Source: Chloroflexota bacterium (GTDB lineage Bacteria > Chloroflexota > Dehalococcoidia > Bin125). From it: a DNA stretch of 64,000 nt. The stretch is from the NCBI GenBank assembly GCA_028874365.1, contig JAPPJZ010000067.1:1-64000 (forward strand), read 5' to 3'. The notes below the pieces were generated by a model. The model searched no databases and was not told the DNA's origin. It worked only from the letters and a program-made list of their open reading frames with translations. A program made the position numbers and the translations under genes. The first letter of the stretch is position 1, and every line of letters begins with the position of its first letter. Below are positions 37,759-40,705 of the stretch, one piece after another.

Positions 37759-38535
37759 ATGACAGACCGATTCGAAGGCAAGGTCGTCGTGATCACGGGA
37801 GCCGCCGGCGGAATCGGCAGGGCGACGGCCGTTCGCTTCGCCTCAGAGGGCGCCCGCATCCTCGCCGTCGATTTGCCGAACTCCGATCTCGACGAAACAG
37901 TCGCCGCGGTACAACGAGCCGGCGGCGACATCGCGACCCACGAAGCGGATGTCACCGTGGCCGGCCAGGTCGAGGGCTACGTCCGGGCGGCGCTCGACCG
38001 GTTCGGGCGGATCGATGTCTTCTTCAATAATGCGGGCATCGAGGGCTGGGTCGGGTCGCTGCTGGATTACCCGGAGGACGAGTTCGACCGGGTATTCGCC
38101 GTGAACGTCAAGGGCGTCTTCCTTGGCCTGCAGGCTGTGGGACGAGCCATGCAGCAAGCGGGCGGCGGAGCGATCATCAACACGGCGTCGGTCGCGGGAC
38201 TGCAGGCCACTGCTGCTGCGGCGCCTTACGGAGCCAGCAAGAGCGCGGTCGTCGGGTTGACGAAGTCAGCCGCCATTGCCTTTGTCGACGACGGCATCCG
38301 CGTGAACGCCATCTGCCCCGGTCCGATCGAGACGCGCATGATGCGCGCCATGGAACGAGGCGTGAACCCGGACGACCCGGAGGCCGTCCACCGGAACCTC
38401 GCCGCCTCGACCCCGATGGGACGCTACGGCGAAGCCGAGGAGATCGCCGCCATGGTCGCGTTCCTCGCCAGCGACGACGCCTCCTACATCACCGGAGGCA
38501 TCTACAACGTCGACGGCGGCACTCGCGCGCGCTGA
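37759..38535 (+). CDS. short-chain dehydrogenase/reductase (SDR)
   Basis: 258-residue classical SDR. It has the cofactor motif VVITGAAGGIGRA (from residue 10), NNAG near 90, and the catalytic set Ser144 (NTAS), Tyr157 and Lys161 (YGASK); the C-terminus YITGGIYNVDGGTRAR is typical. NAD(P)-dependent alcohol/ketone interconversion in the cytoplasm. It lies 65 bases upstream of the putative AhpD-like selenoprotein on the same strand, so it may be the first gene of that operon. Confidence 0.93.
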   Translation: MTDRFEGKVVVITGAAGGIGRATAVRFASEGARILAVDLPNSDLDETVAAVQRAGGDIATHEADVTVAGQVEGYVRAALDRFGRIDVFFNNAGIEGWVGSLLDYPEDEFDRVFAVNVKGVFLGLQAVGRAMQQAGGGAIINTASVAGLQATAAAAPYGASKSAVVGLTKSAAIAFVDDGIRVNAICPGPIETRMMRAMERGVNPDDPEAVHRNLAASTPMGRYGEAEEIAAMVAFLASDDASYITGGIYNVDGGTRAR

Positions 38536-38600: not shown

Positions 38601-39086
38601 ATGGCCCGCATCGACATCGCCCCGGGCGAAGGCGAAGAAAGCAGCCGTCTCTTCCAGGCGCGACCCGAGTTGGGGGCGGCGATGAGCGCGCTCTCACGCG
38701 CCGTTATAGAGCACAGCCAGTTGCCGGTGCGCGAGCGGGAGCTCGTGCGCATGCGCATCGCCGAGATCAATCAATGCTCGGTTTGACTGGCGACGCGCTC
38801 TGCATCGGCGATGCAGAACGGCCTGACTGAAGAGGAATACGCGCAGGTCTCCGACTATCGCGAGAACCCGCTGTACACCGATCGAGAACGCGCGGCGATC
38901 GACTTCGCCGAGCGCTTCTGCTACGACCACTCGTCGATGGACGACGACTACTGGGTTGGCCTGCGAACGCTGTTCTCAGATGACGAGATCCTCGATCTCT
39001 CCACCTGCGTCGCCTGCTTCGTAGGCGGCGGCCGCCAGCTTGCCGTGCTCGGCATCCATCGCGAGTGCCCAACGCAAATCCCCTGA
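38601..39086 (+). CDS. AhpD/carboxymuconolactone decarboxylase-like protein with CxxU: probable selenoprotein
   Basis: A 61-codon ORF ends at TGA 38784-38786 and the same frame continues without another stop to 39086. Translated through, it gives 161 residues: RMRIAEINQCSV, TGA, LATRSASAMQNGLTEEEY. AhpD and CMD-family proteins have the redox motif CxxC followed by a helix with His or Arg at this position, so the TGA replaces the second Cys and gives CxxU (Cys59, codon 62). Sec-containing AhpD-like proteins are known. The rest has the normal fold (RERAAIDFAERFCYD, CVACFVGGGRQLAVLGI). GAGGAG precedes the ATG. A SECIS-like hairpin lies at 38799-38817. The UGSC gene starts 21 bases later. Confidence 0.87.
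38799..38817 (+). promoter_or_regulatory. candidate bacterial SECIS element of the AhpD-like gene
   Basis: Perfect 8-bp stem: TCTGCATC (38799-38806) and GATGCAGA (38810-38817), loop GGC. The loop begins 20 nt after the TGA and starts with G. This is the strongest of the three hairpins, because the stem is fully paired and contains several A-T pairs, so it is not explained by high GC alone. Confidence 0.7.
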
Positions 39087-39107: not shown

Positions 39108-39638
39108 ATGCCCGTTACGTTCCTCGAACCCACGGCCGAGCGCGGTATCGAGCTTGAGCCGTACGAGCTGTTCATCGACACCAGCGGCCCGATCACGGTC
39201 GGCATGATCTCGAACGCCTTCCCCGACGGCACAGAGTTCATGCACAAACTCGAATCGGAACTGGCGGCCGTCATGCCGCAGGCCACGTTCCGTCACTACC
39301 AGAAGCCCAACGTCGCCGCCGTGGCCGACGAGTTGGTCGACGTCATCGGCGAAGAGTGCGACGCGGTCCTCGCCGCCTGGGGGCATTGAGGCGGCTGCAC
39401 ATCCGGCACCGTGCGTGACGGAGCGATCTTCGCCAAGGCCGGTCTCCCATCGATCGCGATCGTTACCGAGGCCTTCGTCGAGTTGGCCGCCTTCACCGCC
39501 GAGGCGGTCGGCATGCCCGCCGTGCCTCGCTACGTCCTGCCCCACCCCTGCTCCGGCACCGGCGACGAGAACCTCGCCCGCGTCGCTCGCGAGGCCGCGC
39601 CCGGCATCATCGACCTGCTCGAGGGGCGCACCCGGTGA
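39108..39638 (+). CDS. UGSC family protein with in-frame TGA: probable selenoprotein
   Basis: A 93-codon ORF ends at TGA 39387-39389; the same frame runs on to 39638. The read-through product has 176 residues with the junction CDAVLAAWGH, TGA, GGCTSGTVRDGAIF, i.e. U-G-G-C (codon 94 and Cys97). This is the motif of the UGSC (seleno)protein family, which is named for U-G-S-C. The C half (AKAGLPSIAIVTEAFVELAA, PRYVLPHPCSG) is typical of that family, which is related to the GrdB side of glycine-reductase-type selenoproteins. Function unknown. AGGAG precedes the ATG, and the stop overlaps the GTG of the next gene (GTGA), so the two are translationally coupled. Confidence 0.88.
39402..39422 (+). 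promoter_or_regulatory. candidate bacterial SECIS element of the UGSC gene
   Basis: Hairpin TCCG-G-CAC (39402-39409) with GTG-A-CGGA (39415-39422): a 4-bp and a 3-bp helix around one G/A mismatch. The loop CGTGC contains GU and begins 20 nt after the TGA, the same distance as in the other two genes. Confidence 0.6.
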
Positions 39639-40705
39639 ACCTGCGCTCCACGCGCCACCAGGCGCCGGACGAGGCAACGGCACTCGAACTGTTCCATCTG
39701 CGCGAGTGGACCGACGGCCTGCCCGTCGTCATCCCCACGGAAGAGCGCGTCGGAGATCTGCTGGCCGGGGTGGAACTCGAACCCGATGTCGTCATCGGCG
39801 AGATCGGTCCGGGTCAGGCGACGGTCGAGAAGATTGCGATCAACGCCGTCATGGCCGGCTGTCGACCGGAGCACTTCCCGGTTGTGCTGGCCGCCGTCCG
39901 CGCCGTCACCGATCCCGAGTTCGACATCGACAACATGCAGTCGACCACGCACGGAATGGGACCCGTGATCATCGTCAACGGCCCGGCGCGTGACGTCTGC
40001 GGCCCGATCGCCTCCGGCTGGGGCGCGCTCGGCCCCGGACATCGCGCCAACGCCAGCATTGGCCGCGCACTCCGACTCTGTCTGATGAACATCGGCGGCG
40101 CGCGGCCCGGCCACGGAGACATGGCCGCGCTCGGTCAGCCGGGCAAGTTCACCTGTTGCCTCGCCGAGGACGAGGAAGGCAGCCCCTTCCCGCCCCTGCA
40201 CACCAGCTTCGGCTACGACTCCGAACAGTCCGCCGTCACCCTCGTCGGCGTCGACGCCCCGCACTCCGTCATGATGCAGACCAACGACGACGACCCCGAG
40301 GCTCACGAACGCATCCTCCGCGTGGTCGCCGGGGCCATCGCGATTCCCGGAGCCAACAACACGCAGATCGGCAACGGTCCGGTCATCGTCGTCCTCAACC
40401 CCGTACACGCCGGCGTTCTCGCTTCAGCCGGACTCACCCGCGATGACGTCGTCGAGCGCCTCGTGGAGCTGGCCGTGACCCCGAACGCAACAATGCTGGG
40501 CTGGGCCACAAAGCGAGCCTTCCGCGACGACAACGCCCACCTACCGGCACTGCGAGGTCCTGAAGACCTCGTTCTCATCGTCGCCGGGGGCGGTGGCATG
40601 TACTCCGCCGTGTTCAGCGGCGGCCTCGCCGGCTCAACCCACCCGGTGCATGCCCCGATCGACTTCGACTTCTCCTGCGAACTTCCCCGGGTCCCAGCGC
40701 CTTAG
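39635..40705 (+). CDS. conserved-looking protein of unknown function coupled to the UGSC selenoprotein
   Basis: 356 residues from a GTG that overlaps the UGSC stop. No signal peptide. Distinct segments are LREWTDGLPVVIPTEERV, INAVMAGCRPEHFPVVLAAV with one Cys, DNMQSTTHGMGPVIIVNGPA, an RLCLMNIGGARPGHGDMA segment and GPEDLVLIVAGGGGMYSAVF. The regular mix of Gly-rich turns and strands suggests an enzyme, possibly built of two similar halves, but I do not recognise a catalytic motif. Translational coupling strongly suggests that it works with the UGSC protein, perhaps as the subunit that supplies the substrate site. Convergent stop overlap with the CaiB gene. Confidence 0.8.
   Translation: MNLRSTRHQAPDEATALELFHLREWTDGLPVVIPTEERVGDLLAGVELEPDVVIGEIGPGQATVEKIAINAVMAGCRPEHFPVVLAAVRAVTDPEFDIDNMQSTTHGMGPVIIVNGPARDVCGPIASGWGALGPGHRANASIGRALRLCLMNIGGARPGHGDMAALGQPGKFTCCLAEDEEGSPFPPLHTSFGYDSEQSAVTLVGVDAPHSVMMQTNDDDPEAHERILRVVAGAIAIPGANNTQIGNGPVIVVLNPVHAGVLASAGLTRDDVVERLVELAVTPNATMLGWATKRAFRDDNAHLPALRGPEDLVLIVAGGGGMYSAVFSGGLAGSTHPVHAPIDFDFSCELPRVPAP

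Follow-up and report, generated by a model that had tools for sequence, protein, structure and literature searches.

The AhpD-like gene at positions 38601–39086 on the forward strand of the window, the whole 64,000-nucleotide stretch of Chloroflexota DNA analyzed here, encodes with a probability of about 0.93 a selenoprotein of the CxxU type (Cys59-Ser-Val-Sec62), a reading of the sequence from which we infer the insertion of selenocysteine (Sec) itself. The frame contains one internal stop, the TGA at 38784–38786 on the same strand, which forms codon 62 in the context INQCSV-U-LATR; beyond it come 99 sense codons and then the terminal stop, also TGA. Codon 62 coincides exactly with the second Cys of the CxxC motif in the AhpD-like (CMD) gene, as the original prediction had stated, and the 161-residue read-through product matches the Pfam CMD family (PF02627) with an E-value of 6.5e-16 and 58.5 bits against a cut-off of 23, which bears out the further claim that the 99 codons beyond the TGA carry AhpD/CMD sequence. 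The protein stays below the curated cut-offs of TIGR01926, peroxidase-related enzyme (46.1 against 81.8 bits), and of NF053654, YciW-related (seleno)protein (57.7 against 310 bits).

A profile search of 400 Chloroflexota genomes gave matches in 144 of them. Codon-by-codon inspection covered the 36 best full-length loci, and at the position aligned to codon 62 these loci carry TGA in 28 cases and TGC or TGT in 8, with no other residue; the variability that, according to the original prediction, would have refuted the assignment is not seen among them. TGA also occupies this codon in distant homologs of many families. The genome that contains the window (3.12 Mb in 82 contigs, 96.1% complete) has Chloroflexota MAGs as its nearest named relatives, and three congeneric genomes hold orthologs that are 91–94% identical, with TGA at codon 62 in all three. 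MPNM01 bin125, a relative holding an ortholog, comes from the sponge Aplysina aerophoba (PMC5649159), and with it selenoprotein use is firmly established for a Chloroflexota genus of which at least one member has a marine sponge as its source. Repeated CMD sequences were observed at a few of the wider loci: L034 (1033–2063, minus strand) has two AhpD-like matches in tandem, at least one of them with TGA in the CxxC motif, and at L044, L050, L053 and L062 the Sec-type AhpD gene is closely followed on its downstream side by a second CMD match, which is partial.

The TGA is followed on the forward strand by a candidate SECIS hairpin at 38799–38817 (TCTGCATC-GGC-GATGCAGA), assigned from comparative pairing and from bSECIS rules. 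Its perfect 8-bp stem is formed by 38799–38806 and 38810–38817 (+13 to +20 and +24 to +31 after the TGA) and its GGC loop by 38807–38809 (+21 to +23), in agreement with the perfect downstream stem of 8 bp and loop at +20 that had been described from the letters. The published rules for bSECIS elements specify a loop of 3–9 nt with a G within its first two positions, an upper stem of 4–16 bp, a spacing of 16–37 nt and an energy of at most −7.5 kcal/mol (PMC13188914), and the hairpin conforms to them with a GGC loop, 8 bp, a spacing of 20 and −15.7 kcal/mol. Its folding energy is unremarkable when taken alone (z −1.5; 16 of 200 shuffles fold equally well), and a comparative test was needed because folding energy by itself fails to identify a SECIS. 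Across 25 distinct Sec homologs, positions +14 to +20 pair with +24 to +30 in one fixed register with a mean of 6.72 of 7 pairs, as against 2.4–3.9 pairs when the 3′ side of the same sequences is slid; each of the seven core pairs occurs as at least two Watson-Crick types in this set, and 18 of the 25 have a GGC loop. The 7-bp core is absent from the Cys homologs, six distinct sequences of which form 1–3 of the 7 pairs at this register. Relative to synonymously recoded versions, the Sec sequences fold with a mean z of −1.15 (n = 28) and the Cys sequences with one of −0.07 (n = 8); of these two tests, conservation of the register is the stronger. An Rfam scan of the 64,000-nt window returned nothing at gathering thresholds. 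The seven codons that hold the stem (66–72) show no synonymous change among the window gene and its three orthologs, while the rest of the gene has many of them. As judged from these comparisons, the signal beyond chance is one of conservation, namely of the TGA in the window and in three intact orthologs, of stem codons free of synonymous change, and of a covarying stem held in a fixed register. In the mechanism that we propose, the hairpin, which begins 12 bases past the UGA, would guide SelB and a Sec-tRNA(UCA) in inserting Sec at codon 62.

The product would be a 161-residue protein of the CMD/AhpD type with the redox pair Cys59-x-x-Sec62. By analogy with AhpD, Sec62 would stand in for the second catalytic Cys and cycle with Cys59 through a selenenylsulfide, and the pair would donate electrons to, or accept them from, a partner or a small oxidized substrate. 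The closest solved structures by sequence are PA0269 and related AhpD-like proteins (PDB 2o4d and 2ijc; E 1.5e-22), which share with the window protein a Glu, a Cys and a second redox residue at equivalent spacing. Mapping by spacing sets Glu47, Cys59, Val61, Sec62 and Arg66 against Glu36, Cys48, Tyr50, Cys51 and His55 of PA0269, from which the window protein differs in having Sec for Cys51, Arg66 for His55 and Val61 for Tyr50. The AhpD relay (Glu, Cys, Tyr/His, Cys, His), the last His of which is invariant in the structures compared (PMC3141380), is incomplete in these last two respects, and AhpD-type chemistry can therefore not be assumed. Either His or Arg occupies the relay-His position in other Sec and Cys homologs alike, and the Arg therefore marks a subfamily and is not an effect of Sec. 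A selenol is ionized at neutral pH, so Sec may not need the His for its deprotonation. Of the original proposal of Sec in a peroxidase or disulfide reductase, the Sec is thus supported, and the enzyme class, given Arg66 at the relay His and Val61 at the Tyr/His position, stays conjectural.

Knowledge of AhpD-like CxxU selenoproteins dates back to 2005. Such proteins were described in the Sargasso Sea set (PMC1088965); the GOS set includes AhpD-like 1 and AhpD-like 2 selenoproteins and one read with Prx-like 1 beside AhpD-like 2 (PMC2398784), and a 2026 review has entries for 'AhpD-like protein TIGR01926 CxxU' and 'CMD-like protein PF02627 CxxU' (PMC13188914). The window protein resembles these known proteins in its CMD/AhpD domain, in the predicted Sec at the second position of CxxC and in a bSECIS just downstream (PMC1088965, PMC2398784, PMC13188914); it differs from them in falling below the NCBIfam cut-offs, in the Arg that replaces the relay His, and in the UGSC selenoprotein gene that comes next. 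In the literature consulted we found no report of an AhpD-like gene adjoining UGSC; the AhpD-like CxxU kind is already known and the gene arrangement is the fresher part.

The adjoining gene begins after a gap of 21 bases, at 39108–39638 on the forward strand, and encodes a 176-residue UGSC-family selenoprotein with the motif GH-U-GGC. With its in-frame TGA (39387–39389, forward strand; Sec94) read through, the product matches Pfam PF24696 with an E-value of 1.5e-38 and 133.1 bits (cut-off 25) and scores 99 bits against the NCBIfam equivalog NF041046, for which the cut-off is 125. The list of open reading frames cuts the gene short at 39389, where the stop is the in-frame TGA, and a table-11 gene caller would truncate both genes at their TGA codons, losing the probable selenium-dependent redox unit. 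This second TGA had gone unmentioned in the original prediction. It is present in the window and in all three orthologs, nearly all Chloroflexota UGSC matches contain one in-frame TGA, and the window genome has four UGSC matches with one each. In the window, the UGSC gene has a hairpin of lower regularity than the AhpD-like gene, with one stem mismatch and a 5-nt loop. Compared with the UGSC family as defined by PF24696 and NF041046, the gene is alike in its UxxC motif, its full-length Pfam match and a partner gene that is adjacent or fused, and unlike in the motif UGGC instead of UGSC, in the low NCBIfam score and in the AhpD-like selenoprotein gene directly upstream. Structure prediction gave a confident alpha/beta model (pLDDT 88.5), but comparisons by Foldseek and VIA-align brought up numerous unrelated folds, flavodoxin-like and receiver-like, with scores close to one another, and no function therefore follows from it. 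GrdB and PrdB have a UGxC motif; a sequence link between UGSC and these proteins, suggested by that motif, found no support in Pfam, as PF07355 was not among the families matched at E ≤ 1 in a search whose HMMER filters drop weak matches.

The stop of the UGSC gene is overlapped by 4 bases by the GTG start of a third gene (39635–40705, forward strand), whose 356-residue product has no match in Pfam, NCBIfam or PDB sequences and belongs to a family that recurs as a neighbor of UGSC. Of the 30 other Chloroflexota UGSC loci, 26 have a member of this family no further than 1.5 kb from UGSC (four being paralogous loci of the genus), and at L095 the two are joined in one 577-residue frame, a fusion that recalls, by analogy, the fusion of UGSC to 'Unknown_1' in the GOS set (PMC2398784). 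The predicted structure of the 356-residue protein (pLDDT 83.4) has its only matches, all weak, among the fumarate hydratases and the Toblerone-fold hydrolases (TM near 0.27, Z near 4), and these were not used. Elsewhere in the window genome (G000), a UGSC paralog on contig C55 (L079, 3571–6999) is flanked by several same-strand copies of the 356-residue family. The UGSC family, long known without a characterized function, is here tied to one recurrent partner protein and to a second selenoprotein, and concrete protein pairs to co-express and assay follow from these links. On the other side of the AhpD-like gene, an SDR-family oxidoreductase gene (37759–38535, forward strand; PF13561, E 6e-65) ends 65 bases upstream and may or may not share a transcript with it; the SDR gene is also upstream at L004, L005 and L031 and was not found by homology at L006. 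A search around the cluster revealed no sigma-70-like promoter, a result that says little for this phylum.

The gene that follows the AhpD-like gene encodes a second selenoprotein, so the AhpD-like and UGSC proteins probably form a small selenium-dependent redox unit; for the more specific proposition that the two are partners, we see the odds as about even. The AhpD-like, UGSC and 356-residue genes occur together in the genus, and the likeliest role of the AhpD-like protein would be that of a thiol/selenol relay serving the UGSC and 356-residue pair. We favor this role over its main rival, in which the protein is a selenoprotein but a free-standing one, peroxidase-like, disulfide-reducing or reductive dehalogenase-like, that has nothing to do with the UGSC unit and stands beside it by incidental gene order; this is a serious possibility, to which we give somewhat less than even odds. 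Consistent with a free-standing enzyme, the CMD homologs of solved structure include the debrominase Bmp8 (6ohi, E 4.2e-12) along with AhpD-like proteins, the sponge that yielded one ortholog belongs to a genus, Aplysina, that has been screened for halogenases (PMC6644159), and further Sec AhpD-like genes of the phylum do not adjoin UGSC. The adjacency was seen in four genomes, all of one genus, and 30 UGSC loci read with flanks of as much as 1.5 kb showed no AhpD-like gene beside UGSC outside that genus; the AhpD-UGSC partnership therefore rests on one genus. Incidental gene order is, however, at odds with a gap of only 21 bases and with the presence of both genes in the same four genomes, and also with the congeneric genome G103, in which the AhpD copy has decayed and UGSC and the third gene are missing from the 1.5 kb read downstream. 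In this copy (locus L031, 1480–1851) the frame is broken near its start and the C-terminal part is lost, the TGA and the hairpin are still there, and the SDR gene upstream is intact. The relay that we prefer could be extended to a scheme in which the three genes form an undescribed two-selenoprotein module, the CxxU of the AhpD-like protein feeding electrons to the UxxC of UGSC in complex with the uncharacterized family, and in which UGSC and the 356-residue protein would be a widespread selenium-dependent enzyme of Chloroflexota; in this full form the proposal is tentative and rather unlikely.

Readings that dispense with Sec fare far worse. Functional termination at codon 62, without read-through, would yield a 61-residue product and/or a separate 91-residue product from the internal ATG at 38811, which does open a 91-residue frame (38811–39086). 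We consider this very improbable, as conservation embraces both parts of the CMD domain along with the TGA and the hairpin, the Cys homologs run continuously across codon 62, and the split would cut the domain at its active-site motif. Among the window gene and its three orthologs, pairwise dN/dS is 0.036–0.064 before the TGA and 0.057–0.158 after it, values that indicate purifying selection on both sides of codon 62. The window gene ends in TGA and its three orthologs end in TAG, whereas the TGA at codon 62 is constant; terminal stops therefore drift and the internal TGA does not. A pseudogene, in which a decaying AhpD gene would owe its TGA to nonsense mutation or to faulty sequencing, is more improbable still: decay of this gene does occur in the genus, in G103, but the TGA is common to four separate assemblies and recurs at the same codon in the distant homologs, and the selection that persists downstream of it is incompatible with a pseudogene.

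Least probable is an altered code or suppression by which TGA would stand genome-wide for Cys, Trp or another residue, for which the open frame itself speaks and nothing more. TGA serves other genes as a normal stop, ending the SDR gene (38533–38535), the UGSC gene (39636–39638) and 3 of the 15 large frames sampled, and this use as a terminator speaks against a recoded genome; the Sec machinery, moreover, is present. The concern that the organism might lack this machinery is dispelled by a complete set in the same genome, comprising SelA (529.9 bits, cut-off 267.9), SelB (342.5 bits together with its neighbors in the frame, cut-off 242.25), tRNA-Sec with the anticodon TCA (70.2 bits, cut-off 47) and SelD (352.1 bits, cut-off 125). 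The SelD gene (L025, 1501–2442) has an in-frame TGA of its own, in the motif CGG-U-GSK, and SelD is therefore probably a selenoprotein too.
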